A stretch of DNA of 49,777 nt from Xanthobacteraceae bacterium (lineage in GTDB: Bacteria; Pseudomonadota; Alphaproteobacteria; Rhizobiales; Xanthobacteraceae), in contig JAIESI010000028.1 in NCBI GenBank assembly GCA_019746135.1, forward strand, positions 1 through 49,777. The letters run 5' to 3'. Positions within the stretch are counted from its first letter, which is position 1. Each line of letters begins with the position of its first letter. Position numbers and translations under genes: made by a program. Below, in pieces: positions 9,815 to 33,762 of the stretch. Under the pieces are notes generated by a model. That model ran no database searches. It was not told where the DNA came from and worked only from the letters and a program-made list of their open reading frames with translations.

Positions 9815-10792
9815 ATGGCGTCGGTGAGCGATTGGAAGGTGCCGCCCTCGGTGCAGCCCAAACCGGGAGATTACGCCTATGATCTCGAGGCCGCGCTGAG
9901 CGCGGTGGTGGGCGTGCGCGCGGTGGTGCCGCCGGATGCGTTCACCGCCGACACGCTCGGCACCGAGCGCGCCGGCAACGGCGTGCTGATCCGCGCCGAC
10001 GGGCTGGTGCTGACCATCGGCTATCTCATCACCGAGGCCGAGACGATCTGGCTGACGCTGATCGACGGCCGCGCCGTGCCCGGCACGGTGCTGGCCTACG
10101 ACCAGGCCACGGGCTTCGGCCTGATCCAGGCGCTGGCGCGGCTCGACCTTCCGGCGCTGCCGCTCGGCTCCTCGAGCGCGGCCTCGATCGGCGAGCGTGT
10201 CGTGGTGGCGGGCGCCGGCGGCCGGGCCAAGTCGGTCGCCGCCCGCATCGTCGCCAAGCAGGAGTTCGCCGGCTACTGGGAATACGTCGTCGACGAGGCG
10301 ATCTTCACATCGCCGTCGCACCCGAACTGGGGCGGCACCGCGTTGATCGGTCCGAACGGCGACCTGCTCGGCATCGGCTCGCTGCAGCTGCAGGAGGGCC
10401 GCGAGCAGGGCCCGCCGGGCGACATCAACATGATCGTGCCGATCGATCTCCTGCCGCCGATCTTCGACGACCTTCTGACGCTCGGGCGGCCGAACCAGCC
10501 GCCGCGGCCGTGGCTCGGGCTCTACACCACGGCGATCGAGAACCGCATCGTGGTGGTCGGCCTCGCCAAGGAAGGTCCGGCGCAGAAGGCGGATCTGCGC
10601 ACCGGCGATGTGCTGCTGTCGGTCGCAGGCGGCGAGGTGCGCGATCTCGCGCAGTTCTATCGTCGCATCTGGTCGCTGGGACCGGCCGGCGTCGAGATCC
10701 CGATGTCGATCTATCGCGATGGCAAGACCATCGAAACGCGGCTGAAGACCGGCGACCGCAACCGGTTCCTCAAGGCGCCGAAGCTGCACTGA
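9815..10792 (+). CDS. HtrA/DegP-like protein with PDZ domain and no catalytic triad
   Basis: 325 residues, no signal peptide. The trypsin-like domain spans about 25-215 and a PDZ-like domain about 230-315 (GLAKEGPAQKADLRTGDVLLSVAG). Alignment by eye to HtrA places all three catalytic positions on other residues. The LTN-x-HVV block reads LTIGYLI, so His is Tyr70. The TDLALI block reads TGFGLIQ, so Asp is Gly100. The GNSGGP block reads PNWGGT, so Ser is Trp172. The fold landmarks around each site remain. It is therefore probably a pseudoprotease with a binding or regulatory role. The ATG at 9815 follows AAGGAGC by 7 bases. Confidence 0.88.
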   Translation: MASVSDWKVPPSVQPKPGDYAYDLEAALSAVVGVRAVVPPDAFTADTLGTERAGNGVLIRADGLVLTIGYLITEAETIWLTLIDGRAVPGTVLAYDQATGFGLIQALARLDLPALPLGSSSAASIGERVVVAGAGGRAKSVAARIVAKQEFAGYWEYVVDEAIFTSPSHPNWGGTALIGPNGDLLGIGSLQLQEGREQGPPGDINMIVPIDLLPPIFDDLLTLGRPNQPPRPWLGLYTTAIENRIVVVGLAKEGPAQKADLRTGDVLLSVAGGEVRDLAQFYRRIWSLGPAGVEIPMSIYRDGKTIETRLKTGDRNRFLKAPKLH

Positions 10793-11135
10793 TCTAGAGG
10801 TCAGGTCCGGCAGCACACGCCGCCGTCATTCCGGGGCGCGGGCGAAGCCCGCGAACCCGGAATCCATAACCACTGCTGCAGAGTATGGATTTCGGGCTCG
10901 CGCCGATAGCGCGTCGACCCGCCTCCGCTCGCCATAGCGCGTCGAAGACGCGCGTAAACGCGCTTGTGGGCGGGCCCCGGAATGACGCGGAGCGATTTGC
11001 GCGAACAATTCACGCCATTGATGTTTCCTGCGCAAACATTTCATCGCCCCGCATCGCTGGCTTGCGCCCTGCGGCGATGACGGGCAGCGGCCCAAGGTGC
11101 TAAGACCGGCGGCTTAGTCCGCCGGGAAATATCCA
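10793..11135. repeat. Gene-free stretch holding a long palindromic repeat
   Basis: Outer arms GTCATTCCGGGGC (10825-10837) and GCCCCGGAATGAC (10974-10986) enclose an inner pair around ATCCATAACCA and TATGGATTTCGGG. They also enclose a 34-base block (10931-10964) that recurs, inverted and identical, at 29967-30000. A related element lies at 42117-42236. I see no coding evidence here. Confidence 0.7.
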
Positions 11136-12410
11136 GTGACCACGCTCACCCACGCCGGGCCTGCGCCTGCAAGCGACGTTGATTCCAAAGCCGCCTGGAT
11201 CCGGCTTTGGATCGCGCTTGCGATCGGCACCATCGGCAGCGTCGGCATGTGGTCGTTCGTGGTGGTGCTGCCCGCGGTGCAGACCGATTTCGGCGTCGGA
11301 CGGGGTGAGGCGTCGCTGCCGTTCACGCTGACCATGATCGGCTTCGGCGTGGGCGGCATCCTGATGGGCCGGCTGGCCGACCGCTTCGGCGTGATCCTTC
11401 CCATTGTCGCGGGCGCGATCTGTCTCGGGGCGGGCTACGTGCTCTCCGGCATGGCCGCCAATCTCTGGCAGTTCGCGCTGGCGCAGGGCCTGGTCGGGCT
11501 CGGCAGCTCCGGCTCGTTCGGGCCGATCATGAGCGACATTTCGCACTGGTTTGCGCGCCGCCGCGGCATCGCCGTCGCCATTGCCTCCTGCGGCAACTAC
11601 CTCTCCGGCGTCATCTGGCCGCCGCTGGTTCAATACTTCATCTCCACCCAGGGCTGGCGTCCGACGCAGACCGCCATTGGCATCATCTGCATCGTGTCGA
11701 TGCTGCCGCTGTCGCTGCTGATGCGGCGCTCCGCCCCCGCGCATCCGGCCGGGCACGGCGGCGCAGCCGCAGCCGCGGCCGGTCAGCGCGACTCGCTCGG
11801 CGTTTCGGCGAACACGCTGATGGTGCTGCTGTTCATCGCCGGCATTGCCTGCTGCGTCGCGATGTCGATGCCGCAGGTCCACATCGTCGCCTACTGCGGC
11901 GACCTCGGCTATGGCCCGGCGCGCGGCGCCGAGATGCTGTCGGCGATGCTGGGCTTCGGCCTGATCAGCCGCATCGTCTGCGGCATGGTCGCCGACCGGA
12001 TCGGCGGCGTGGCGACGCTGTTGCTCAGCTCGGTGCTGCAGGGCGTCGCGCTGACGCTTTACGTCTTCTTCGATGGTTTAATTTCGCTTTACGTGATTTC
12101 GGCGCTGTTCGGCCTGTTCCAGGGCGGGCTGATCCCGATGTACGCCATTCTGGTGCGCCAGTTCTTCGCCCCCAGCGAGGTCGGCACCCGGCTCGGCATC
12201 ATTCTGATGGCGACGCTCGGCGGCATGGCGCTGGGCGGCTGGATGTCGGGCTTCATTTTCGACCTGACCGGCTCGTATCGGGCCGCCTTCCTCAACGGCA
12301 TCGGCTGGAATCTCATCAACGTCACGATCATTGGCTGGCTGCTGCTGCGCGCCAACCGCCGCTCGTGTCGCGGTTCGGAAGTTCGCCCGAATTCTCAGCT
12401 TGTTCCGTAG
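11136..12410 (+). CDS. MFS transporter (monocarboxylate/oxalate-formate-like)
   Basis: 424 residues from a GTG at 11136, with twelve predicted helices. The MFS signature between helices 2 and 3 reads GRLADRFGVILP, and its mirror between helices 8 and 9 is CGMVADRIGG. The N-terminal half carries GIAVAIASCGNYLSG, as in organic-anion carriers of the MFS. A loop rich in Ala, Gly and His (about 205-225) separates the two halves. The substrate is unknown. The last 17 residues (SCRGSEVRPNSQLVP region) are encoded inside a palindromic repeat, and the TAG lies in the start of its right arm. The native C-terminus may therefore have been replaced by repeat sequence. Confidence 0.87.
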   Translation: MTTLTHAGPAPASDVDSKAAWIRLWIALAIGTIGSVGMWSFVVVLPAVQTDFGVGRGEASLPFTLTMIGFGVGGILMGRLADRFGVILPIVAGAICLGAGYVLSGMAANLWQFALAQGLVGLGSSGSFGPIMSDISHWFARRRGIAVAIASCGNYLSGVIWPPLVQYFISTQGWRPTQTAIGIICIVSMLPLSLLMRRSAPAHPAGHGGAAAAAAGQRDSLGVSANTLMVLLFIAGIACCVAMSMPQVHIVAYCGDLGYGPARGAEMLSAMLGFGLISRIVCGMVADRIGGVATLLLSSVLQGVALTLYVFFDGLISLYVISALFGLFQGGLIPMYAILVRQFFAPSEVGTRLGIILMATLGGMALGGWMSGFIFDLTGSYRAAFLNGIGWNLINVTIIGWLLLRANRRSCRGSEVRPNSQLVP

Positions 12411-14086: not shown

Positions 14087-14584
14087 CTATTTGCAGGTAT
14101 CGAACACCACCTCGACGCGGCGGTTCTTCTGCCGGCCCGCTGGATCGTCCTTGCCGTCGGCGGTGGTGTTCGGCGCGGCCGGCACGGTCTTGCCGTAGCC
14201 CTTGATCGGCGTCGATGCCGGCACGAGCTCGTGCTTCGCCATCCAGTCGCGCACGGTGCTGGCGCGCGCCTCTGAGAGCGTCATGTTGTAGGCGTCGCCG
14301 CCGATCGCGTCGGTGTGGCCTTCGATGCGCGAGGGTTTGCTGCCGAGCTTCCTGATCCCGGGCGCGGCCGCCATCAGCGTCGTCTCGGCGTCGCGGCGCA
14401 GGTTCGACTTGTCGAAGTCGAACAGCGCGTCGGCGACCACGCTCAGGCGGCGCTCGCAGCGGCTGACCGCGACCAGCTTCACCGCCTGGATGCCCTTGGG
14501 CACCTGCAGCTCCTTCGGCATCTGCCAGACGTCGCGCGGCTTCTGGAATTGAGGACCAAACAACCCGCGCGCGCGTCTCCACAA
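14087..14584 (-). pseudogene. OmpA-family peptidoglycan-binding protein, 5' end lost
   Basis: The C-terminal OmpA domain is intact. ALFDFDKSNLRRDAE, IEGHTDAIGGDAYNMTLSEARA and KGYGKTVPAAPN are all present, with a final QKNRRVEVVFDTC. The conserved part starts about at GPQFQKPRDVW. Upstream there is no signal peptide; the frame runs into a TAG near 14612, and the sequence changes to an IS21-type terminal remnant about 50 bp on. OmpA-like proteins need export, so this copy is probably inactive. It could start at a TTG or GTG near 14584 and make a cytoplasmic fragment. Confidence 0.6.
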
Positions 14585-15175: not shown

Positions 15176-15946
15176 ATGGAATCTGAAGTCTTACCGACAG
15201 TCTTGATTTTGACGCCGGTCAAGAACGCGGGCCGACATTTGAGCCGTTATGTCGCGCTGATCGAAAGGCTCGACTGGCCTCGGTCGCAGCTCTCGATCGG
15301 CATTCTGGAAAGCGACAGCAGAGACGCGACATTCGAAAGCCTGCAAACCCTTCGGCCGCGGCTGGAGGCGCGCGCGCAATCGGTCACGATTCTCAAAAGG
15401 GACTTCGGCTTTCAGATTCCCTCCGGGGTGCCACGCTGGGCCGATGCCATCCAGCTGGCGCGACGGTCGACGCTCGCCCGAAGCCGCAACCACCTGCTGT
15501 CAGGCGCGCTCGACCGGGAGGACTGGGTGCTCTGGATCGATGTCGACGTGGTCGATTATCCGGCCAACACCATCGGTCGCCTGCTCAGCGAGGGGCGGGA
15601 CATCCTGCAGCCGCATTGTGTCGTGGTCCCCAACGGCCCGACTTTCGACCGTAACGCATGGGTCAACGGCGGTAGGCAAACCATGCATGACCTGCGCGGC
15701 AGCAACGCGCCGGTTCGCCTGGATTCGGTCGGCGGCTGCATGCTGCTGGTTCGAGCAGACCTTCACCGGGATGGCCTGGTCTTTCCGGCGTTCCGGTACG
15801 GCCTCGAAAGCAGCGCCATCCGCAAGCCTCATCCGGTCTGGCAGGCGGGCGAAATCGAAACCGAGGGGCTGGCCATGATGGCGGGCGACATGGGCCATCA
15901 ATGCTGGGGATTGCCCGACTTTGAAATCCTCCACGCTCCCGAATGA
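15176..15946 (+). CDS. Anp1/Mnn9-like glycosyltransferase (GT62-type)
   Basis: 256 residues. The layout follows the Anp1 family, best known from yeast Golgi mannan polymerase: VLILTPVKNAGRHLSRYVAL at 10-29, LIERLDWP, a KRDFGF block near 74-79, RRSTLARSRNHLLSGAL at 97-112, and the DxD metal and nucleotide-sugar site WIDVDVVDYP (Asp122, Asp124). There is no membrane anchor, unlike the eukaryotic proteins. It converges on the GT2-TPR gene with a 16-bp gap. It probably transfers a hexose to an acceptor made or handled by the neighbouring cluster (inference). Confidence 0.8.
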   Translation: MESEVLPTVLILTPVKNAGRHLSRYVALIERLDWPRSQLSIGILESDSRDATFESLQTLRPRLEARAQSVTILKRDFGFQIPSGVPRWADAIQLARRSTLARSRNHLLSGALDREDWVLWIDVDVVDYPANTIGRLLSEGRDILQPHCVVVPNGPTFDRNAWVNGGRQTMHDLRGSNAPVRLDSVGGCMLLVRADLHRDGLVFPAFRYGLESSAIRKPHPVWQAGEIETEGLAMMAGDMGHQCWGLPDFEILHAPE

Positions 15947-15962
15947 AACCTGGGCGCGCCAA

Positions 15963-17123
15963 TCAACCGGGCGGCCGAGCCGGAGACGCATTGGCCGCCG
16001 CAAAAGCGGTGGCTTTCGCGCGATAGGCGAGGTTATCAGGGGCCAACGCGGCTGCCCGAGCGAATGCCGCTGCTGCTTCGGCCCGGTGGCCGCGGCGCGC
16101 GTGGGCGGCCCCCTTCAGATCGAAAGCCCATTCGCCGAAGATGCGCTTGTCGTAGGCGACGATCGGGTGCGAAAACGTCTCGGGATCGATGGCGGTCAGC
16201 GCGTCGACGATGGGAAACAGCTCGTCGGTTCTGCCTGCCGCAAACAGCGCCCGCGCCAGGTCGTACTGCAGGCTGTGGCTGAGGGGATAAAGCGCCAGGG
16301 CGCGACGCGCCAACGCGACTGCTTCCGCGGGCTCCGCAGCGCTGAGCGCGATCAGCCGCCGCCAGGCCGGCACGGCATCGTGCCGTTGCTTCAGCTCCTG
16401 GCTTGCCTCCGCGAGCTCGATCGCGCGGCGGCAGGCGCGCGCTGCCTCCTCGTTGCGCCCAAGTCCTGCGAGGGCCTCCGCCATGTCCGTCCAAAGAAAG
16501 ACCCGATCCGGCGTTTTCTTCACTGCCGCCTCGAGCAGCGGCAGGTTGCGGCGGTACTTGCCGATCATTTCGCCGTCATAGCCGACGTGCGTGATCCCGA
16601 CATCGGCCACCGCCAGCGCCATACCGTCGGTTTGCAGCACGGTATGGAGGTCTGGACGCATGGTTTCGTGAATAACGCCCCTGAACCGGATGCGCGGATC
16701 ACGGCGGAATATTCGAATTTCCCGATAGGGCGTAAAATTTGCTCTCGGCTGAAAGCGAACCGCGAGCGCGACCACGTCCGGCTGCGCAACCGCCGCTCGC
16801 AACGCCCCTGCCGTCGGGACAACCAGGCGTTCGTCGGCATCGATATAGAGGATCCAATCGCCTGAGGCCTGGTCCAAAGCATGATTGCGGGCCGCCGCAA
16901 AGTCTCCGGTCCACGGAAAGCTGAACAGACGCGCGCCGTACCGCCGCGCGATGTCGCAGGTCCGGTCCCGGGATCCCGTGTCGACGATGACGATCTCATC
17001 GACCTCATCGACGATCGATCGGAGACAATCATCGAGATACGCCTCCTCATCGCGCACGATCATCGCGGCGCTGATGCGCGACGCTGCGACAAGATCGTTG
17101 TCGCGCGGACCCGTCTCAGGCAT
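15963..17123 (-). CDS. GT2 glycosyltransferase with TPR-like C-terminus
   Basis: 386 residues from the ATG at 17123; an in-frame ATG at 17144 would add seven. The GT-A domain covers about 15-240: ISAAMIVRDEEAYLDDCLRSI, IVIVDTGSRDRT, and the DxD-like YIDADERL. It is of the SunS/WaaE-like GT2 type. Residues about 245-380 are helical, with TPR-style spacing (EEAARACRRAIELAE, ALARRALALYPLSHSLQYDLARALF). Proteins of this layout include S-glycosyltransferases acting on peptides (SunS has a TPR-like tail), which fits the small peptide upstream but is not proof. The start overlaps the upstream kinase stop by 8 bases. Confidence 0.85.
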   Translation of the reverse strand: MPETGPRDNDLVAASRISAAMIVRDEEAYLDDCLRSIVDEVDEIVIVDTGSRDRTCDIARRYGARLFSFPWTGDFAAARNHALDQASGDWILYIDADERLVVPTAGALRAAVAQPDVVALAVRFQPRANFTPYREIRIFRRDPRIRFRGVIHETMRPDLHTVLQTDGMALAVADVGITHVGYDGEMIGKYRRNLPLLEAAVKKTPDRVFLWTDMAEALAGLGRNEEAARACRRAIELAEASQELKQRHDAVPAWRRLIALSAAEPAEAVALARRALALYPLSHSLQYDLARALFAAGRTDELFPIVDALTAIDPETFSHPIVAYDKRIFGEWAFDLKGAAHARRGHRAEAAAAFARAAALAPDNLAYRAKATAFAAANASPARPPG

Positions 17124-18312
17124 GCCCGACCCGTCGTGCCGCATGCGCTTGGAGGCAGGGCAATCGCATATCAAGCAACACGGGAGGTGAACTCCCTCCC
17201 CCTGAAAGGGGGAGGGTTGGGGTGGGGGTCCCTTTGCGTGTCGAAGACGCGTGACCGTGGCGGCTCCGCGGCAGCGATGGACATCCAACATCCATCGAGA
17301 TTGTCAGTGACATCGGAATTCCCATCCGGCTTGTCGTCGCGTGTTTTCGACCGGCAGCCCGCGGTGCGTGCTCTGACCCCCACCCCGACCCTCCCCCTTT
17401 CAGGGGGAGGGAGCGAGAGGCCGTGCTCGCCTTACATGCGTCAAATGCGATTGCCCTGCGCATGGAGCGTAAAGAGCATTTCGGCAAATGCAACGCGCTC
17501 TGCAACAGGCGCCGGCTCTCCTCGACCCTGCCGTTCCACAGCTCCAGACGTTCAGCGCCGGACATCGTGGCCGCGATATCCGCCAGGGCGCCGGCCCGGT
17601 TGGCCGGCGGCAGCACGGCTGCCTTCAACACGCGCTGCATGGCCGTTTCCCAGTCGATGCGCCGCAACCGGGAGCGCCCTCCCTGATTCCCGGACACGAA
17701 CACCACCTGTCGGACCGGGCGCGACCTGATGTTCCAGGGATGGCCGAACGCCGTGGGACAAACGGCATAGATCGGCGAGCCTTCCAATGTGATGATCGAA
17801 GGCGCAGCTCTGACGATCTCGGCGGCTTCGCCCGGGAGATGATCCAGCATTCCGAGCGGGATGCGAAACGGCACCGGATTGGGCAAGGCCAGCTGGCCCG
17901 ACAGGAACAGGTCTTGCCACCCGGCAACGGGCCAGCCCAATGCCATGAGGTAAAGCAACAAAGTGGTCTTGCCCTGCCCTTTGTCTCCAACCAGCAGGAT
18001 ATGTCCCGCTTCGGTCGTGATGGTCGCGCCATTGCCGACCAAAGCTCCCAAAAGCTCTTTCTGGCGCCAGCCGAACAGCCATTCGTGAAGCCGGGCGCGC
18101 AAATACCCGTCCGAGCCTTCTATTCTGGCGCCGTCAGGCAACACGAGGCTCGGAAACCCGTGCGCCATGCCGACGACGAGTTCGTAGCGCGGCAGCCAGC
18201 GCCCCTCGATTTCGGGATCGCTCCGCAAAAACGCCAAGGTGTCCGCTACCGGGCGGTTCGGTGCAGTGATGGAGACTTCATGGCGGAGGCTGCGGACCAA
18301 AACCTTCAGCAA
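17116..18312 (-). CDS. HPr-kinase-like ATPase (HprK-related), C-terminus altered by element insertion
   Basis: The best start is a TTG at 18312 overlapping the TGA of the PqqD-type gene; it has no rival with better context. That gives about 398 residues. A P-loop reads VGDKGQGKTT (Gly109 to Thr117), followed by HprK-like AGWQDLFLSGQLALPNPVPFRIP. The catalytic His/Asp of true HPr kinase is not evident, so phosphate transfer to a protein is only possible. Related kinases occur beside PqqD-type proteins in uncharacterised peptide systems. From about residue 285 the frame reads through an inserted inverted-repeat element (17155-17458), giving a low-complexity tail (LPLKGGGSGWGS). The native end is lost or changed. 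Confidence 0.72.
   Translation of the reverse strand: MLKVLVRSLRHEVSITAPNRPVADTLAFLRSDPEIEGRWLPRYELVVGMAHGFPSLVLPDGARIEGSDGYLRARLHEWLFGWRQKELLGALVGNGATITTEAGHILLVGDKGQGKTTLLLYLMALGWPVAGWQDLFLSGQLALPNPVPFRIPLGMLDHLPGEAAEIVRAAPSIITLEGSPIYAVCPTAFGHPWNIRSRPVRQVVFVSGNQGGRSRLRRIDWETAMQRVLKAAVLPPANRAGALADIAATMSGAERLELWNGRVEESRRLLQSALHLPKCSLRSMRRAIAFDACKASTASRSLPLKGGGSGWGSEHAPRAAGRKHATTSRMGIPMSLTISMDVGCPSLPRSRHGHASSTRKGTPTPTLPLSGGGSSPPVLLDMRLPCLQAHAARRVGHA
17155..17458. mobile_element. MITE-like element, expanded copy
   Basis: The ends AGGGCAATCGCAT (from 17157) and ATGCGATTGCCCT (to 17457) are inverted repeats. The flanks CGCTTGGAG (17146-17154) and CGCATGGAG (17459-17467) match at 8 of 9 bases, as a 9-bp target duplication would. 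The outer 60 bp at each side match the 109-bp copy at 29832-29940. Between two copies of the core palindrome (CTCCCCCTGAAAGGGGGAG type, 17194-17214 and 17391-17411) lies about 180 bp of other sequence, bounded by TTGGGGTGGGGGTC and its inverse. A second palindromic element therefore seems nested inside. Confidence 0.7.
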
Positions 18313-18602
18313 GGCACGATCAGCTCTTCTGCAAGAAATTGCTCGATGCACTGATGAACCTCGAGGCGCGGCGGCCCCTGCAGAGAAAACGTCCGCTGCA
18401 GATAGTCGGTGATCTGTTCGACCGATGCCCTGTCGCCGCAAAGGCGATAGACAATGGCCGCCGCGGGATTGAGGTAGTGCACCTTTTCCCTGGTGACCTG
18501 GTAGACGACAATGCCATCCGCCATGAAGCTCGTTTCGCAACCGGCGGTCAGCGAAAATGTAGAGCTGGAATCAAACGGCATGCCGGGGCCGGATGAAGAC
18601 AT
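18306..18602 (-). CDS. PqqD-family peptide-binding protein (RRE-like)
   Basis: 98 residues from the ATG at 18602. The fold pattern is that of PqqD: a beta stretch (GIVVYQVTREKVHYLNPAAAIVYRLC) followed by a winged-helix part (RASVEQITDYLQRTF, then VHQCIEQFLAEELIVPC). PqqD-type domains bind leader peptides and hand them to modifying enzymes. The gene lies 19 bp after the GT4 gene and overlaps the kinase start (TTGCTGA), so it is translationally coupled. Paired with an HprK-related kinase, it resembles the HPr-rel-A-type neighbourhood described by protein-family curators. The likely client here is the 59-residue peptide. Confidence 0.78.
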   Translation of the reverse strand: MSSSGPGMPFDSSSTFSLTAGCETSFMADGIVVYQVTREKVHYLNPAAAIVYRLCGDRASVEQITDYLQRTFSLQGPPRLEVHQCIEQFLAEELIVPC

Positions 18603-18621
18603 GATTGCGAGACAACAGGGT

Positions 18622-19872
18622 TCACACTCCGTCGAGTAGCTGCTGAGCGAGTCGAGCGACGTTATGTTGCAGCCTGAATCGGCTGGCCACATATGACCGC
18701 GCCAAATTGGCACGGCGTCTTCGTTCCGCGGCATTCGCGAGAGCGTAGGTAATGGTGGCCGCAAACGCAACGGCATCCTCGGCAAGCCAGATGTGGTGTT
18801 TCGGACTGAGGCCCAACCCCTCTGCACCGAGCGGAGTCGTCACGATCGGAACACCCTGCATCGCGCTTTCCAGCACCTTGATCCGGGTCCCGGCGCCGAC
18901 CCGGATCGGAGCGATCATCATCGTTGCAGCCCGCAGATGTCGGTCCAGATCCTGCACCCAGCCGAGCATCGTGGCGCCGCGCTGGCCGGCAAGGCGGCGC
19001 AGACGTTCGGGCGCACCGCCGCCCGCGATGCGAAGCTCCAGGTTGGAGACGTGACGGAGCTTCGGCCAGATGTCGCGAAGCAGCCATTCGACCGCATCGC
19101 GATTGGGCTCGTATCCGAGCGATCCGACAAACAGGAGCATGCGTCTAGCATCGCTTCTTCGCAGAGCGGGACTGCCGGCCACCGTGTTGGGGAATACGCG
19201 AATCCCAGGACTGTGGAACCGTGACCGGAGCCTTGCGGCATCGGTCGGCGAAGCAACCCATACGCGATCGAAAGCCGGCACAACGGCGTCCACCAGCCGG
19301 CGGAAGGCATTGGCCTCCAACGTGAGCCATCGCTGATCGCTTCGATTTCCATGTCGAGCCGCGAGCCCGGCCAGACCGTCAAACACACGACCATCATCCT
19401 CGTCGAGGTCGAGAGTGAGCAGCGGCCGGCGCCGTTGCAGATTTTTGCCGCAAAACTCCAGCGACAACGGAGCAAGATAGCTGCGCGCCGCATGGATGAT
19501 GTCATAGCGGCGAGTCTTTATTTCATCGGGGACTTGCTCAAACGCCTTGGGCGCAATCCTTGCGGCAAGGCTCGGCTTGCCGAAGCGGGCAAACGCATCC
19601 GCGCGCGCCGGCGGATCAATCACGCGCATGAGCAAGCCGAAGTGGGTATCGACCGCCCGGGCCATGTCGATGACGTGGACCCGCAGGCCTGTGTCTTTCG
19701 AACAGTCGATCGCGTCCATCCTGAGCGGGCCGAACAACGGCGCGACGACCAGATCAACATCGGCAATCCGTGTCAGCGCTTGCAGGAAAAGATTGAGCCG
19801 CATCGCCAGGCCGTTCCCCCCGGGAGCCGGCATCGCGGGGGCGAGCATCAAGGCTCTCAAACGGCGCGTCAT
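18622..19872 (-). CDS. GT4-family glycosyltransferase
   Basis: 416 residues, GT-B fold. The N-terminal half (APAMPAPGGNGLAMRLNLFLQAL) carries the glycine loop of the acceptor domain. The C-terminal half has LLFVGSLGYEPNRDAVEWLL and the nucleotide-sugar block PIRVGAGTRIKVLESAMQGVPIV, which includes the E-x7-E-type site. It resembles the sugar transferases of exopolysaccharide and exosortase-linked loci. ATGA overlap with the upstream 183-residue gene shows coupling. Confidence 0.87.
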   Translation of the reverse strand: MTRRLRALMLAPAMPAPGGNGLAMRLNLFLQALTRIADVDLVVAPLFGPLRMDAIDCSKDTGLRVHVIDMARAVDTHFGLLMRVIDPPARADAFARFGKPSLAARIAPKAFEQVPDEIKTRRYDIIHAARSYLAPLSLEFCGKNLQRRRPLLTLDLDEDDGRVFDGLAGLAARHGNRSDQRWLTLEANAFRRLVDAVVPAFDRVWVASPTDAARLRSRFHSPGIRVFPNTVAGSPALRRSDARRMLLFVGSLGYEPNRDAVEWLLRDIWPKLRHVSNLELRIAGGGAPERLRRLAGQRGATMLGWVQDLDRHLRAATMMIAPIRVGAGTRIKVLESAMQGVPIVTTPLGAEGLGLSPKHHIWLAEDAVAFAATITYALANAAERRRRANLARSYVASRFRLQHNVARLAQQLLDGV

Positions 19873-20420
19873 GGATTCGAATCGCCGGGCGCTTCGTAAT
19901 GTGTCTGGACAATCCTCGGCACAGGCCCGACGGCGCGCGGCTTTCGCTGATCCTGGCGTTCCACGAGCTCGCGCACGATCCCGGCAAGGTCCGGCGAACC
20001 GGACGCGAGGTCGAGCAGCGCTGCGCGCGCGGCCGGCTCCGCGCGCAGGAGCAATTGCAGCACCCCACGCAGTTGCTGCCGCGCTTCCTTCGAACCTCCC
20101 TCATGCAAACCGGCGGCGGCCACCAAGGATTGGACCAGGCCGTTCAATCCGCGAGCATGCTCGATCGGCTCACGAACGGAGCGCGCGTCGACACGGACCC
20201 CGCTTCGGGGGAAGGACAAGCGCTCGCCAAGCCACGAGCCGTTCGTCGCCGGATGCAATCGATGGGTGACGCGGCTGGAATCATGAATGATAAGATCAAG
20301 GCCGGCTGCCGATTCAGTCACATGCCAGTTCTGCCGATCGACGCTGCGGCCAGGTGGCCGACGTGCGGACCGGCTCTCGCGCGCGCAGGTCTTCAACCTC
20401 GCGAAAAGCTCATCCGACAT
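19869..20420 (-). CDS. Unknown cluster protein, 183 residues
   Basis: I recognise no family. The N-terminal third is basic and polar (ARESRSARRPPGRSVDRQNWHV). The middle has beta-like segments (GLDLIIHDSSRVTHRLHP). Residues about 85-165 are helical and Leu/Ala-rich (GLNGLVQSLVAAAGLHEGG, LRGVLQLLLRAEPAARAALLDLA). No signal peptide or membrane span. The ATG at 20420 has GACGAGG about 12 bases upstream. Its position between the ATP-grasp and GT4 genes, with a 4-bp overlap to the latter, makes it part of the cluster. Confidence 0.7.
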   Translation of the reverse strand: MSDELFARLKTCARESRSARRPPGRSVDRQNWHVTESAAGLDLIIHDSSRVTHRLHPATNGSWLGERLSFPRSGVRVDARSVREPIEHARGLNGLVQSLVAAAGLHEGGSKEARQQLRGVLQLLLRAEPAARAALLDLASGSPDLAGIVRELVERQDQRKPRAVGPVPRIVQTHYEAPGDSNP

Positions 20421-20541
20421 GGTCTGAATGCCTCGTCTTCATTTTCTTCAGGTTGGACGCCCCTCCTTATGCCGCGCGGCAACCTTCAGCGCGCACTCAT
20501 ACGGGGCGATGTTAGCCGGGGTCTGCGGCGTTTAAAATTCT

Positions 20542-21501
20542 CTACTCGGCCTCGGCCCGCGTGCGCTCGACGAGCACCCGGGCGACCGTTCGGAAGGCAT
20601 CAAATTCCAACGTCAGGTCGGTAACGCCAAGCGCTTTCCTGTAGCCTTCGGCGGAGCTGTTGGAGAACATCCAGGTGCCGCCGCCGGGGTTGATTTCGAG
20701 CAGGTAGAGCCGGCCAGTGCCCCTTTCACGAATGATGTCGCAGGCCTGCAGCGCCACCTCGGGCATCGCGCGATATGCGTCCGCGGCCAGCTGCAAAATG
20801 TCCGGCTCCCGCGTGCTGTATGTGATGCGATCAGGCAGGGACGGCATGTATTCGCTCTGCTGGAATCGATCCTTGTCGGCGGGAAGCGACAACGGCTTGG
20901 TCGACTGCCGATAGAACGTCAGGATGGGCTCGCCGAAAAAAGTGAGCACACGGCACGTCATCGGGTAACCGCAATCGATAAACTTCTGGGCGATCATCGG
21001 CGCTTGCCGCCCCGGATGGTTTGGCGGAAATGATTCGGGTGGGCGGTATTCAACGTGAGGCGTTCGGAAAAGAACGACGCCTTGACCGTGTGAAGCCAGA
21101 TCGTAGGACGGCTTGGTCACGACCAGCGGGCCGTAAATCTTTTCCGACAGCCGCGTATCGGGTTCGATCACTTCGAATTCCGGAATTGGCATTCCACCGG
21201 CGGCCAGCCGGCGCATTTCCGCCAGTTTGGACATTCGGGCCCCCGCGTAGACCTTGCCGCGGGCCGGCTTGAAATGAAGCAGGCGCAACGGTGAGAAGAT
21301 CAGGGTCGGCCGGGATGCGGCGATCTTTCGCGTCGCCGAGGACGGGATATCGTTGGATGCGATGAAAACTTGGATATCCGGCGCCTGATCCTCAATGTAG
21401 CGCTTGATGGTGGCGAAGTCGGCCGGATCCTGCCATTCGCGGGTATGAATCAGGATCAGATTTCGCTCTGGCTCGGCGGCCGCGGGGCGGTCGAGCGTCA
21501 T
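20542..21501 (-). CDS. ATP-grasp ligase (RimK-like fold)
   Basis: 319 residues. ATP-grasp landmarks are Lys130 in VVTKPSYDLASHGQGV (lysine plus glycine-rich loop), AQKFIDCG (171-178, hinge), Arg184, an acidic Asp255, and the metal site LEINPGGGTWMF (Glu269, Asn271). Enzymes of this fold form amide or ester bonds by acyl-phosphate chemistry. Relatives in graspetide pathways cross-link Ser, Thr or Lys to acidic side chains of small peptides. It lies 132 bp after the 59-residue peptide gene with a small hairpin between. The peptide as substrate is an inference. The ATG at 21501 has only a weak ribosome site. Confidence 0.82.
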   Translation of the reverse strand: MTLDRPAAAEPERNLILIHTREWQDPADFATIKRYIEDQAPDIQVFIASNDIPSSATRKIAASRPTLIFSPLRLLHFKPARGKVYAGARMSKLAEMRRLAAGGMPIPEFEVIEPDTRLSEKIYGPLVVTKPSYDLASHGQGVVLFRTPHVEYRPPESFPPNHPGRQAPMIAQKFIDCGYPMTCRVLTFFGEPILTFYRQSTKPLSLPADKDRFQQSEYMPSLPDRITYSTREPDILQLAADAYRAMPEVALQACDIIRERGTGRLYLLEINPGGGTWMFSNSSAEGYRKALGVTDLTLEFDAFRTVARVLVERTRAEAE

Positions 21502-21633
21502 CGACAGCAGGACGCGCTTCTACCGGACACGAGCCTGAACTCCAGACACCCGCCACAGTCCAACGCCCTCCGGCTTGCGCCGGCTTTCCTCCGTGACAGC
21601 CCGCGGGATGCAGGCCGCCCCGAGCGCAGCAAA

Positions 21634-21813
21634 TTACGTGTTGCCGGTGAGCGAGGTGATCCCCGATCCGCCCAGTCCATGCAAGGGGAACGTTGCGACT
21701 TTGGGAGGCTCGTACTTCGCCATTTTCGCAAAATGCTCGGCGGCCTTCTTGACTACGGGATCGATGGCCAGGGCGGGCACGTTCTGTTGATTTGCCGAAG
21801 AAGACTCGTACAT
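21634..21813 (-). CDS. 59-residue peptide, candidate precursor of the cluster
   Basis: The frame runs ATG 21813 to TAA 21634 with GGAG 7 bases upstream, 19 bp after the outer-membrane gene. The peptide starts MYESSSANQQNVPALAIDP. It continues with an amphipathic helix VVKKAAEHFAKMAKYEPP (20-37) and ends in a Gly/Ser/Thr-rich tail: FPLHGLGG, then SGITSLTGNT (42-59). There is no signal peptide or cysteine. A helical front half and a small-residue tail next to PqqD-type, ATP-grasp and kinase genes is the layout of a leader-core precursor. The tail has Ser and Thr that could be phosphorylated, glycosylated or esterified. It could instead be a small structural protein. Confidence 0.6.
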   Translation of the reverse strand: MYESSSANQQNVPALAIDPVVKKAAEHFAKMAKYEPPKVATFPLHGLGGSGITSLTGNT

Positions 21814-21832
21814 CGCTCGACTCCAAAATCGA

Positions 21833-22726
21833 TCAGACAGGGCCGTTCTCGCTCTGTATGACCGGCGTGTTGATGACAGGCGTGGTCGTGCCGGAATTGC
21901 CTATGGTACCAGCCGCGCTCTCCACTGCCGCGGGATCATCTTCGCGGTGACGGCGGATCAGGGTCTTGTCACGCTGGCCGAAGTAGAATTTCAGGCCACC
22001 AAAGATGCCATGGTTGCTGCCACTGCCGACGCGGCCTTCGGCGAACAACGATCCCATCGTGCCGCGGCCGACCGCAAAGCCCCATTCGGCGCCCAGCAAT
22101 CCGGAGAGCTTGCCGCCCTGATAAAGCTGGCCGACATACGTCTTGAAATCGTCGGTCCAATAGTAGGAAACCTTCGCCACGTCGAAGAAGCGGGTCTTGA
22201 TGTCGTAGGACTGGATCTGGTTGCCGACGACGCCAGACACCGAGTTGCCGGTTTCGACACCCGCGACCGCCGATAGCGTCCAGCGTCCGAGATAGTATTC
22301 GCCTTCGGCCGCGACACGGCCCACGTTGACGCCGCCGACCCGGCTGCTCCAGCGCGTGTAGTCGACATAGATGCCGAGCAGGCCCACGGCGGGATCTCTG
22401 GTGAACAGATGCCCACCGATGTTTCCGAGGAAGCGGCTGTCGAAGCTCGCGGCCGCGGCATCGACCTGCACGCCAAATTGTTGTCCGATGGGAGCCGAAA
22501 GCGAGGCGCGCGACCCGTACAACCCCTTGTTCGCTTCCGATCCGCCAAACCCGTCAATTTTGGAATTGAATCCATCGACCGCCGGGCGTGCGCGATACAC
22601 ATCAGCCACGGCCTTCGTGTAGGCGCCGGTGTTGATGTCGGCTGCCTTGACCGTCAGCGTGGATAGAAACACCGCACCGACGATCCCAGACAGCATCGTC
22701 GTAGAAAGCAACCCAGACCTGGACAT
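21833..22726 (-). CDS. Outer-membrane beta-barrel protein
   Basis: 297 residues from the ATG at 22726. The signal peptide MSRSGLLSTTMLSGIVGAVF cleaves near VKA-AD. The mature part is built of alternating aromatic and hydrophobic strands with Gly turns (LLGIYVDYTRWSSRVGGVNVGRVAAEGEYYLG, VSYYWTDDFKTYVGQLYQGG, GIFGGLKFYFGQRDKT). This is typical of a porin-like barrel of 12 or so strands. The tail is polar (GTTTPVINTPVIQS) and lacks a terminal Phe. It is the first gene of the cluster and close-coupled to the peptide gene, so it may be the exit channel or display partner (inference). Confidence 0.75.
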   Translation of the reverse strand: MSRSGLLSTTMLSGIVGAVFLSTLTVKAADINTGAYTKAVADVYRARPAVDGFNSKIDGFGGSEANKGLYGSRASLSAPIGQQFGVQVDAAAASFDSRFLGNIGGHLFTRDPAVGLLGIYVDYTRWSSRVGGVNVGRVAAEGEYYLGRWTLSAVAGVETGNSVSGVVGNQIQSYDIKTRFFDVAKVSYYWTDDFKTYVGQLYQGGKLSGLLGAEWGFAVGRGTMGSLFAEGRVGSGSNHGIFGGLKFYFGQRDKTLIRRHREDDPAAVESAAGTIGNSGTTTPVINTPVIQSENGPV

Positions 22727-23044
22727 CAGACCACACCGCCGAACCAGCCAAAAAGCCACGTTGCAGGAATTTTCGCTCCCGAGAATAGGTCTTTATGCAT
22801 GCGTCTATGCGGGACCCGAGACTGTCATCCAAATGGCACATTCACAGCAATTTCAACCCGCTTCGATAACTCTCGTCGCATCCGGCGTTTCGCGAAGCCG
22901 ATGTCATCATCGACCCTTCGGATTCTATCATGACGTGTTCGAGGCCATGAAAGACGACAACGGGCAACCCAACATCCTCTGGGCGATCCTTCTTCGGCTT
23001 CTGAAACGCGTTTTTCACAACTTTAGAAACGACTTTTTTGTCAG
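22727..23044. other. Gene-free stretch upstream of the cluster
   Basis: This probably holds the promoter for the minus-strand cluster, but I can assign no convincing -35/-10 pair. The part next to 23044 follows the end of the transposase remnant. No intact gene is seen. Confidence 0.4.
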
Positions 23045-23394
23045 TGACGTTGTCCCCAATTTTTATCCAGCGCCGATTGGAGTCTGACTTTCGGTTTTGC
23101 CCTCTCGGGCGGCGGTCCGCGGAGCGGAGCCGTCGGTGGAGCGCAGCGGACCGCCGTTGCGCGGCGTAGATGGCGGGGCTCAGCCAGCCGAGCCGCGAGT
23201 GCGGTCGGTCGTGGTTGTAGTCGGTGCGCCAAGCTTCCAACATCGAGCGGGCGTGCGGCAACGAACGGAACAGGGTCTCGTTGAGCAACTCGTCCCGCAG
23301 ACGGCCGATGGAGGATTCGGCGAAGGCGTTCTGCACCGGTTTACCCGGCGCGATGTAGTGCCACTCGACCTTGTGGTCGTCGGCCCATCGCAAG
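23045..23394 (-). mobile_element. IS3-family transposase (OrfB) 3' remnant
   Basis: The frame encodes the C-terminal part of an IS3-type integrase domain: [19 protein letters not shown] (with the last catalytic Glu), then [29 protein letters not shown], and an Arg-rich end [12 protein letters not shown]. The rest of the transposase (two catalytic Asp) is missing. At about 23394 the sequence changes abruptly to a tctC gene on the other strand. Confidence 0.85.
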
Positions 23395-23790
23395 GACGTG
23401 CTGGCCGGCCACGTGCCGATGACGTTCGACCTGATCGGCAACGCGATGAACAACATCCGCGAGGGAAAATTCCGCGCGCTCGGCATCACCGCGGCGGAAC
23501 GATCACGGCTTCTGCCCGACGTGCCGACCATGGTCGAGGCCGGCTTGCCCGAGATGCAGGCCGGGGCCTGGTTTGCGTTCTTCGCGCCGGCCGGGACGCC
23601 CGCATCGGCGATCGCCTGGCTCAACAAGGAGGCCAACGAGATCTTCTCGGCCAAGGATGTGGCCGACCGATTCACCACCACCGGAGTGACGCTGCCGTTC
23701 GGGCCGCCGAGCCTGCTGCGCGATCATGTCGACGCCGACAGCCGGCGCTGGGCGGAGGTGATCCGGCGCGCCGGCATCAAATTGCAGTAG
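23395..23790 (+). pseudogene. Bug/TctC-family binding protein, 3' fragment
   Basis: About 130 C-terminal residues: [65 protein letters not shown], ending RRAGIKLQ. The first 60% of the gene, including the signal peptide, is absent; the IS3 remnant begins at the break. It cannot be exported or fold as a two-lobe receptor. Confidence 0.85.
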
Positions 23791-29831: not shown

Positions 29832-29940
29832 GGAGGGCAATTGCAGTTGATGAATGTAAGGCGAGCACGGCCTCTCGCTCCCTCCCCCTTTCAGGGGGAG
29901 GGAGTTCACCACCCGTGTTGCTCGATATGCGATTGCCCTG
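29832..29940. mobile_element. 109-bp MITE-like element with 9-bp target duplication
   Basis: The ends GGAGGGCAATTGCA and TGCGATTGCCCTG are inverted repeats with one mismatch in the central 12 bases. CCCGCGAGG lies on both sides (29823-29831 and 29941-29949), a perfect 9-bp direct repeat. The centre is a CTCCCTCCCCCTTTCAGGGGGAGGGAG palindrome. It has no coding capacity. An expanded relative is at 17155-17458. Confidence 0.75.
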
Positions 29941-30121
29941 CCCGCGAGGTGAGCGTGGCCGCCATCAGCGCGTTTACGCGCGTCTTCGACGCGCTATGGC
30001 GGTCGGGTGGGGAGATGCCAGCGTGTCACTCCGACATCTCCCCACCCGTCGCCTTCGGCGACTCCCTCCCCATAGCCCGTCGAAGACGGGCGTCACCGCC
30101 CTTGTGGCGGGGAGGGATGGC

Positions 30122-32973: not shown

Positions 32974-33696
32974 TCACCTGTCGGGCTGCAACCCGGCTGT
33001 CTCTTCGATCATGTCGGCATGCACAAGGTAGCGCATCGGCCCGGGCGTCGCCGCATCGAGCGGCCAACAGGTGGCAAGCACCAGCCTGTGGCCCTCGGCC
33101 AGCGGATCGATACCCGATTGATCGAAATTGACGACCGAGGTCCCGCTCACCCGATAGCGGAAGGTCCTGCCATCCCGCCGCGTCACCGCGATCTCGTCGC
33201 TGATGGCCACGTCCTTGAGAAAGCGGAAGTGCGTATCGCGATGCGCCGAATAGACCGCAACCCCGCGCTCGCCCGCGTCGGGTGTCAGCTCGACGTGGCC
33301 CGGTCCGAACGCCAGCGCCTGTCCGCTTGAGCCTGCCAGCGCGATGGCGCTGGCGCCGAGGCGCTTCACCTCGATGCGCGCCACCGGCCAGGTGTCCGCC
33401 CAGGACCAGGGCTTCACCTCGCGGCCGGTCGCGATCGTCTCGGCGAAGGCGCGTTCGAGCAGCACCTGCGCCAGCAGCGCCTTGGCGTGGATGTACGCGC
33501 CTTGCCCGAGCAGTACGAGGCCTGCGAGGGTGAGGATGGACACGAAGGCAAGACGAATTCGTTGAAACCACTTTTTGTGCTGGGTCGCCGCTTCCGCGGG
33601 GACGAACGGGGTTAGGCCGGCGCTGCTCTCTCCGTTCGCCCCCGCGGAAGCGGGGGCCCAGGGCCGCAGCAACCAATGCGTCCGTTTCAAATCCAT
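32974..33696 (-). CDS. Class GN (proteobacterial) sortase
   Basis: 240 residues from the ATG at 33696; an earlier start at 33735 lies inside a hairpin and is less likely. One membrane span at about 47-70. Catalytic residues are His in YSAHRDTHF, Cys in LVLATCWPLD and Arg in PMRYLVHA. Sortases cut an LPxT-like signal and attach or release the cargo. The next gene upstream encodes a protein with such a signal (LPKTA). An unusual segment (APASAGANGESSAGLTPFVP) near residues 15-38 comes from an in-frame palindromic repeat. Confidence 0.9.
   Translation of the reverse strand: MDLKRTHWLLRPWAPASAGANGESSAGLTPFVPAEAATQHKKWFQRIRLAFVSILTLAGLVLLGQGAYIHAKALLAQVLLERAFAETIATGREVKPWSWADTWPVARIEVKRLGASAIALAGSSGQALAFGPGHVELTPDAGERGVAVYSAHRDTHFRFLKDVAISDEIAVTRRDGRTFRYRVSGTSVVNFDQSGIDPLAEGHRLVLATCWPLDAATPGPMRYLVHADMIEETAGLQPDR
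33581..33660. repeat. Palindromic repeat inserted in frame in the sortase gene
   Basis: CCGCTTCCGCGGG (33588-33600) plus CGAACGG pairs with CCGTTCG (33632-33638) plus CCCGCGGAAGCGG (33641-33653), within TGGG-TC and GGGGCCCA outer arms. It encodes the Ala/Pro/Gly-rich insert at the sortase N-terminus without breaking the frame. Confidence 0.75.
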
Positions 33697-33721
33697 GGCG
33701 CGAAAACCTTTGAAGATGTTT

Positions 33722-33762
33722 GCGCGCGCGGCCACTGGGGGACCTGAGGTGGCCGCGCGCGC
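33722..33762. promoter_or_regulatory. Strong hairpin between sortase-substrate and sortase genes
   Basis: GCGCGCGCGGCCAC (33722-33735) pairs perfectly with GTGGCCGCGCGCGC (33749-33762), a 14-bp stem with a 13-nt loop. It lies in the 105-bp gap of the probable operon. It could lower sortase expression relative to the substrate or stabilise mRNA. Confidence 0.6.

Follow-up and report, generated by a model that had tools for sequence, protein, structure and literature searches.

SENGP-tagged outer-membrane barrels accompany one clade of ATP-grasp ligases in a candidate modification cluster of a Xanthobacteraceae bacterium and its relatives

Introduction

What does an ATP-grasp ligase modify when its gene stands among genes for an outer-membrane beta-barrel, a small peptide and several glycosyltransferases? 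The question is raised by nine genes at positions 15176–22726 of a 49,777-nucleotide stretch of DNA from a Xanthobacteraceae bacterium (GenBank assembly GCA_019746135.1, contig JAIESI010000028.1), which is called the window below. On the minus strand the order is barrel, 59-residue peptide, ATP-grasp enzyme, a protein of 183 amino acids, GT4 glycosyltransferase, PqqD-like protein, HprK-like protein and a GT2 glycosyltransferase with tetratricopeptide repeats (GT2-TPR); the ninth gene, for an Anp1-like transferase, converges on them. A preliminary description, made from the sequence alone, had taken this set for a system that yields a modified, possibly glycosylated and exported peptide. Following it up computationally, we arrived at a reading to which we give a probability of about one half: a dedicated cytoplasmic system in which the ATP-grasp enzyme modifies an outer-membrane barrel tagged with the residues SENGP, a small peptide delivered by PqqD is glycosylated, and the two are possibly joined.

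Results

The barrel gene (21833–22726, minus strand) encodes a protein whose C-terminal tail ends in QSENGPV, with the tag codons at 21839–21853. The protein had no Pfam match. Its AlphaFold2 model (predicted local distance difference test score, pLDDT, 81.6) has about 12 strands and a tail of low confidence, and the N-terminal helix was read by eye as a signal peptide, so that a closed outer-membrane barrel with a signal peptide is predicted. The nearest structure in the PDB was the intimin beta-domain (4e1s, E 4.3e-7), and the other matches were barrels as well.

Relatives of the ATP-grasp gene (20542–21501, minus strand) were searched for at several taxonomic ranges. A scan of the single sequence against contigs of 84,980 species returned four loci. 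At the thresholds used, matches were obtained in 10 of 296 family genomes, in 22 of 397 genomes from the order and in 2 of 385 from the class, the own genome being included each time. The two genomes matched in the class search (E 1e-60) were those of the window and of locus L090 (39% identical), whose 18-kb locus had none of the other cluster genes and no tag; a plasmid search gave no match. Loci L085 and L086 (the same genes as L020 and L019) and L029–L031 (Ddl-like matches) were excluded before counting, as were further duplicates (L101 = L130, L102 = L136, L104 = L147, L183 = L185). In a tree of 37 rows, from which L081, L084, L090 and the second L066 copy were omitted, the window and eight other loci formed one clade with a support of 100/100. 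The other hosts are two Labrys, a Rhodobacteraceae metagenome-assembled genome, a Brucella sp. and four other members of the order. Their ATP-grasps are 47–66% identical to that of the window, the best homologue (66%) coming from Labrys; since the nearest ones outside the clade reach 47% (L023) and 44% (L024), it is the tree, rather than identity, that delimits the clade.

All nine clade loci contain a barrel gene encoding SENGP within 4 kb of the ATP-grasp gene, at distances of 20 to 3,719 bp, a regularity that the preliminary description had overlooked. Per locus, the barrel was the sole open reading frame (ORF) of at least 40 residues with the sequence ENGP, and it always read SENGP. Eight of the tags sit in loop 1 of Omp31-like barrels (PF13505 in the two tested); no other 5-mer is shared by these eight barrels, and the loop around SENGP varies in length and sequence. 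The window barrel is of another family, without significant similarity to the eight, and carries the tag at its C-terminal end with one residue (Val) after it. As judged from the sequences, the tag is therefore carried by two unrelated families of barrels, and at a different site in each. None of 27 loci of other ATP-grasps had a SENGP barrel; this distant comparison set includes L090 and covers 5 to 20 kb per locus, the short ones among the other 26 being L027 (5 kb), L087 (10 kb), L068 and L074 (12 kb each) and L083 (15 kb). Among 200,000 shuffled versions of the window barrel, 17 contained SENGP; as it was a comparison of these very barrels that revealed the motif, the figure is descriptive.

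The genes might nevertheless have no joint function and form a loose neighbourhood, in which a surface-glycan locus and a module of peptide and PqqD lie beside a barrel whose loop sequence was inherited. The variable gene content would agree with this, as would the abundance of glycan genes and barrels in these genomes and the fact that the tagged ATP-grasps are a single clade. However, the tag appears at different positions in two unrelated families, SENGP was missing from 44 of 45 distinct non-cluster Omp31-like barrels, and outside-cluster paralogues in the cluster-bearing genomes read lacked it. The lone exception is a second SENGP barrel on the second replicon of the cluster-bearing Labrys genome G487 (L102/L136, contig 2), which may be a second substrate; a paralogue of similar identity (77%) in the cluster-bearing genome G441 is without the tag. 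A second barrel within locus L065 also lacks the tag, and no SENGP was seen in 16 relatives of the window barrel, three of them from the same genome, the tail of one (L171, early stop) being out of view; the start of L178 is missing, and the tails of L181 and L186 are unusually long and odd. We regard such a loose neighbourhood as very unlikely.

The window ATP-grasp gave only weak family matches in NCBIfam and Pfam. Its predicted model is a confident ATP-grasp fold (pLDDT 88.8), and a Foldseek search placed it nearest to RimK (4iwx, 1.1e-11) and LysX/ArgX (5k2m, 1.4e-11), both at about 15% identity. DcsG and D-Ala ligases were likewise among the nearest structures, and PsnB, a graspetide ligase, came at rank 16. 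RimK and LysX/ArgX extend proteins at a carboxylate. Outer-membrane proteins (OMPs) also lie close to the more distant ATP-grasps: in the 26 other loci six were found in the 77 kb within 1.5 kb of the ATP-grasp gene versus four in the 328 kb outside (p 0.005), a biased comparison of supporting value, as the query set was partly picked from barrels seen near ATP-grasps. The ATP-grasp genes of L023 and L024 are each about 30 bp from a barrel ORF. The barrels near the more distant ATP-grasps had no common motif, and DENGA (L023), EHNGPP (L082) and SEDGN (L080) were suggestive at most as alternative tags. Locus L080 (L168, 5630–6373 of L080) shows a cluster with barrel, peptide, GT2-TPR and PqqD, in which SEDGN stands in the barrel loop and the nearby ATP-grasp is 29% identical. 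Tandem copies of more distant ATP-grasp genes were seen in L066, L067, L076 (three within about 8 kb) and L079, and L066 adjoins a row of three porin-like genes.

The 59-residue peptide (YEPPKVATF...TGNT; 21634–21813, minus strand) belongs to a family. When held out of its own profile it ranked first of 799 ORFs (E 5.2e-7), and leaving out each of eight peptides in turn brought the right ORF to the first place in all eight loci, the weakest being L080 (E 0.0026). The peptide is present in seven of the nine clade loci (the window, L020, L021 and L062–L065), and one more occurs in L080. The seven aligned share Y-E-x-P and a G-N near the C-terminus, with L080 reading YKLP and AGN, and the family pattern YxxPxVx[S/T]...GN consists of a fixed part and a variable tail. 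The conserved small peptide that the preliminary description had expected in related clusters, with just such a tail, is thus found there, and the gene set and the peptide exceed chance.

Six of the seven peptide-bearing clade loci also have a PqqD-type gene. That of the window (18306–18602, minus strand) is a marginal match to PF05402 (22.8 bits against a cut-off of 23.4) and a candidate RiPP recognition element (RRE; RiPP, ribosomally synthesized and post-translationally modified peptide) for the YxxP peptide. YxxP is a known motif by which RREs recognise lasso leaders (PMC12710340). The suggested co-occurrence of ATP-grasp and PqqD holds inside the clade, with PqqD in six of nine loci, and fails outside it, where a single one of the 27 distant ATP-grasp loci (L080) had a PqqD-like gene.

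The full peptide profile was run on 16 further loci. Nothing below E 0.2 was obtained in nine other ATP-grasp loci, and peptides were found in all of five clusters (L163–L167; best E 5.9e-5 to 0.065) drawn from a GT2-TPR search that matched 13 of 377 order genomes at E 1e-60. These peptides are of the same family with mostly different tails; L164 has seven tandem YxxP-family genes (10615–12390), and a peptide of L163 (10150–10425) carries a three-fold 12-residue repeat, QGVNCLNVASVT. The 19-kb loci contained PqqD in five of five cases, HprK-like genes in four, Anp1 in three and GT4 in three, and neither an ATP-grasp nor a SENGP ORF. Peptide, PqqD and GT2-TPR are therefore a pairing that also occurs, in five clusters, without ATP-grasp and tag. 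The pairing of ATP-grasp and SENGP barrel, present in 9/9 clade loci, stands alone in the Brucella sp. locus L022, where the two genes are 20 bp apart, yet no PqqD, GT2-TPR or peptide was detected. The window carries both modules. Behind the L022 ATP-grasp lies an ORF (11003–11338) for a 111-residue protein rich in PTEPTIT repeats, and upstream is a P-loop/GT2 fusion (P-loop by eye, GT2 by family match).

A RiPP natural-product cluster would offer another explanation: ATP-grasp and glycosyltransferases would modify the peptide, PqqD would recognise it, the barrel would be its exit channel or receptor, and SENGP would dock the modified peptide or an enzyme. ATP-grasps and RREs do occur in RiPP pathways, and the conserved, variable-tailed peptide with PqqD in most clusters fits such a role, as do the resemblance of the window barrel to autotransporter and FapF polypeptide-transporter barrels and the GN ends of the peptides. 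All eight peptides of barrel-bearing clusters end in GN plus 0 to 2 residues; most of the other peptides lack this ending (an L164 copy has GGN). However, NCBIfam and Pfam scans of the cluster recognised neither a dedicated transporter nor a leader protease, which speaks against the exported free peptide of the preliminary description as well, and the window peptide has no Asp or Glu after YEPP, so that side-chain links of the graspetide type are impossible there. None follow YEAP in L062 either; four of the other five aligned peptides have some. Moreover, L022 combines ATP-grasp and tagged barrel without a detected PqqD, GT2-TPR or peptide, and peptide clusters without ATP-grasp exist. The notion of a peptide side-chain ligase was not upheld: the ATP-grasp tracks the SENGP barrel (9/9), and the peptide was found in 5/5 GT2-TPR clusters whose loci of 19 kb showed no ATP-grasp. 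Taken together, a RiPP pathway seems rather unlikely.

The three glycosyltransferases, GT2-TPR (15963 to about 17123, minus strand), GT4 (18622–19872, minus strand; PF13692, 85.9 bits) and the Anp1-like mannosyltransferase (15176–15946, plus strand; PF03452, 149.6 bits), were all above the Pfam cut-offs. The closest structures to a GT2-TPR profile in the PDB were GmaR (1.3e-36) and SunS (1.1e-30), both of which glycosylate polypeptides; this agrees with what was supposed at the outset, and activity on a polypeptide is predicted from homology. Over the nine clade loci, GT2-TPR is present in eight and directly beside the ATP-grasp gene in seven, PqqD in six, GT4 in five, Anp1 in three and HprK-like in two; the PqqD homologues come from five other clade loci and all five GT2-TPR clusters, and those of GT4 from four other clade loci. 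The Anp1-like genes of L063 and L064 are 61–63% identical to that of the window, and those of L165–L167 57–66%.

This wealth of glycosyltransferases could mean that nothing but OMP glycosylation takes place, with SENGP as the sequon of GT2-TPR, the other transferases extending the glycan and the ATP-grasp decorating it, for example with an amino acid on a sugar. GDP-fucose-type genes at L019 and L020, a NodZ-family gene in L063 and GT10 in L166 would suit such a pathway (the Labrys loci are flanked by GDP-mannose-dehydratase- and GDP-fucose-synthase-like genes, named by reading), as would a weak PF14397 match of L021. A TPR-bearing cytoplasmic O-glycosyltransferase, FlmG, is described for Caulobacter (PMC7591256) and counts in the same direction. 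Yet L022 has ATP-grasp and SENGP barrel with no GT2-TPR found, SENGP ORFs are absent from the 19-kb loci of the five GT2-TPR clusters, and peptide and PqqD are left unexplained, which makes glycosylation as the sole process quite unlikely.

All nine ORFs proposed for the cluster were confirmed in their places, and the junctions named for it were read in the DNA: a gap of 19 bp between barrel and peptide (21814–21832), ATGA at 19869–19872, TTGCTGA at 18306–18312 and ATGCCTGA at 17116–17123. The close coupling claimed for the whole set holds less well at two gaps, peptide to ATP-grasp (132 bp) and ATP-grasp to the 183-residue gene (121 bp), and at the HprK–GT2 junction, which lies behind a repeat element. 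This inverted-repeat element of about 305 bp (17155–17459), which has GGGGGAGG palindromes and is seen again at 29834–29942, separates the HprK-like from the GT2-TPR gene and occupies the interval between PqqD/HprK-like and GT2-TPR where many related clusters have the peptide gene. A search of the own genome with window positions 16000–18000 gave 108 matches, nearly all inside or at the edge of the element. The HprK-like gene (17460–18312, minus strand, TTG start) has a frame that runs on to 17116 through it, the last 100 or so codons of this ORF being repeat sequence; because the frame crosses the element, the HprK–GT2 coupling at ATGCCTGA is probably accidental.

The HprK-like protein of the window is 30% identical to that of L064 and has homologues in L164–L167, of which L164, L166 and L167 match TIGR04352 (HprK_rel_A) under the cut-off (L164, 52.3 bits against 200). 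The window protein itself had no match to this model at E 0.1, and its putative assignment rests on the P-loop and on homology to better cases elsewhere. L164 and L165 each have two HprK-like genes. The 183-residue protein (19869–20420, minus strand) had no family match of its own above cut-off in NCBIfam or Pfam; its residues 25–84 resemble a part (C-terminal, by eye) of a Mannosyl_trans3 protein of L064 (33% identity, E 1.7e-5).

Around the cluster, a transposase-like ORF with an integrase core (rve_3; 22842–23681, minus strand) closely precedes the barrel gene and may point to mobility. A sortase of class GN (marine proteobacterial) and its target protein (32974–33735 and 33802–36099, minus strand) both exceed NCBIfam cut-offs, and an OmpA-like gene (14087–14584) is a weak match to the sortase-associated PdsO model.

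Discussion

The pairing of ATP-grasp with barrel and that of peptide with PqqD and GT2-TPR each occur separately, and we infer that the barrel is modified by the ATP-grasp and the PqqD-held peptide by the glycosyltransferases. PqqD would hold the peptide through YxxP while GT2-TPR adds the first sugar, for which the conserved Ser/Thr is a candidate site, and GT4 and Anp1 would extend it. The RimK/LysX-like ATP-grasp would recognise SENGP on the unfolded barrel before export and activate a carboxylate, for which the tag's Glu is the simplest candidate. An amide or ester bond would result, its other partner being the peptide, an amino sugar or some small molecule, and the product would then reach the outer membrane on the barrel. 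Among these steps, action of the ATP-grasp on SENGP is the best supported, and the joining of peptide and barrel the boldest.

Several observations weigh against this two-module system. The nine loci all belong to one ATP-grasp clade and are therefore not nine independent events, and SENGP could be a docking site rather than the site of modification. The barrels of L023 and L024 adjoin a related ATP-grasp yet lack SENGP, so that there is no general link between the tag and this family of ligases. PqqD was not detected in loci L019, L020 and L022, nor was a peptide found in L019 and L022 with the full family profile; HprK-like genes occur only in the window and L064, plus the P-loop/GT2 fusion of L022 (by eye), and the P-loop of the window protein looks atypical by eye. 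At the DNA level the SENGP pattern is at genome background (51 matches against 57 for the control in six genomes, 9 against 5 in the own genome), which rules it out as a genome-wide motif. Two of the nine own-genome matches lie in an ORF reading SENGP, namely that of the window barrel and one of 150 residues that begins with VSENGP and is doubtful; in the six genomes, 30 of the 51 pattern loci were read, and eight had a SENGP ORF, four being cluster barrels and four apparently antisense or non-coding (by eye). Finally, loop 1 is expected to be extracellular, whereas the C-terminal tail of a 12-strand barrel is normally periplasmic. Intimin-type barrels thread their C-terminal part outward, and by analogy we conjecture that such threading would place both tag positions outside.

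A more specific version takes SENGP as an acceptor tag, to which the ATP-grasp joins the C-terminal GN of the PqqD-bound glycosylated peptide, or a sugar-bearing product made on the peptide, before export of the barrel. The GN ends shared in barrel-bearing clusters hint at such a joint product, as far as sequences can tell, and we consider this version unlikely. If true, conjugation would be ubiquitin-like and would lead to the display of a glycopeptide at the cell surface, and the tag, movable between barrel families and positions, would be a portable one.

How does the cluster relate to known systems? Membership among the graspetides was rejected: the window peptide lacks the needed acids (compare PMC8939145), and no graspetide ligase model was matched in NCBIfam or Pfam at E values to 0.1. 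The window ligase shares the ATP-grasp fold of MdnC and PsnB, the latter a lower-ranked structural match, but is closer to RimK and LysX. The latter pair, RimK and LysX-ArgX, are the best structural matches at only about 15% identity, and neither of their substrates, S6 and LysW, is an outer-membrane protein. Membership among the lasso peptides, which remain the source of the RRE motif, was likewise rejected, as the nine genes include no asparagine-synthetase-like cyclase or B2 protease (among these nine, the rest of the genome lying outside the search). What is shared with lasso clusters is a PqqD-like gene, a predicted RRE partner judged by motif, together with YxxP (YEPP in the window, YEAP or YKLP in the other seven peptides); the peptide itself stops roughly at the point where the leader of a lasso peptide would end. 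Lasso clusters with an HPr kinase homologue (paeninodin, pseudomycoidin; PMC8498205 and PMC12710340) have in common with the window a separate PqqD/RRE protein, YxxP, an HprK-like protein and sugar transfer, but no transporter was recognised among the nine window genes.

The likeness to HPr-rel-A clusters (TIGR04352, TIGR04353), raised by the preliminary description, stands as a relationship, with PqqD-like and HprK-like genes adjacent, though the window genes miss the curated cut-offs (PqqD_rel_X, TIGR04353, 19 bits against 35; 31.8 in L064). A nucleotidyltransferase, PF14907, is a partner in HPr-rel-A-type clusters. It is present in L164 and L167, and L164–L167, with GT2-TPR, a peptide of the same family, PqqD and HprK-like genes, form a bridge; the nine window genes gave no PF14907 match and have the ATP-grasp and SENGP barrel in addition. 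Glycocins of the SunS type are not matched either (SunS equivalog 64.8 against 350 bits, and no Cys in the window peptide), although GT2-TPR matches SunS and GmaR by profile. Its TPR part is as in FlmG, which differs in having a GT-B domain (PMC7591256). By its defining features, then, the cluster is no graspetide, lasso, glycocin or curated HPr-rel-A system, though it shares parts with each. A literature search gave no description of such a cluster among the matches listed, subscription literature and preprints being mostly outside its coverage.

The regularity of SENGP suggests an undescribed way of modifying outer-membrane proteins. A tag that accompanies a single clade of ligases would offer a new approach to bacterial surface modification and possibly a portable labelling site, and the extended peptide family, with its tandem copies and repeated tails in relatives, would provide testable substrates for clusters of the PqqD/HprK type.

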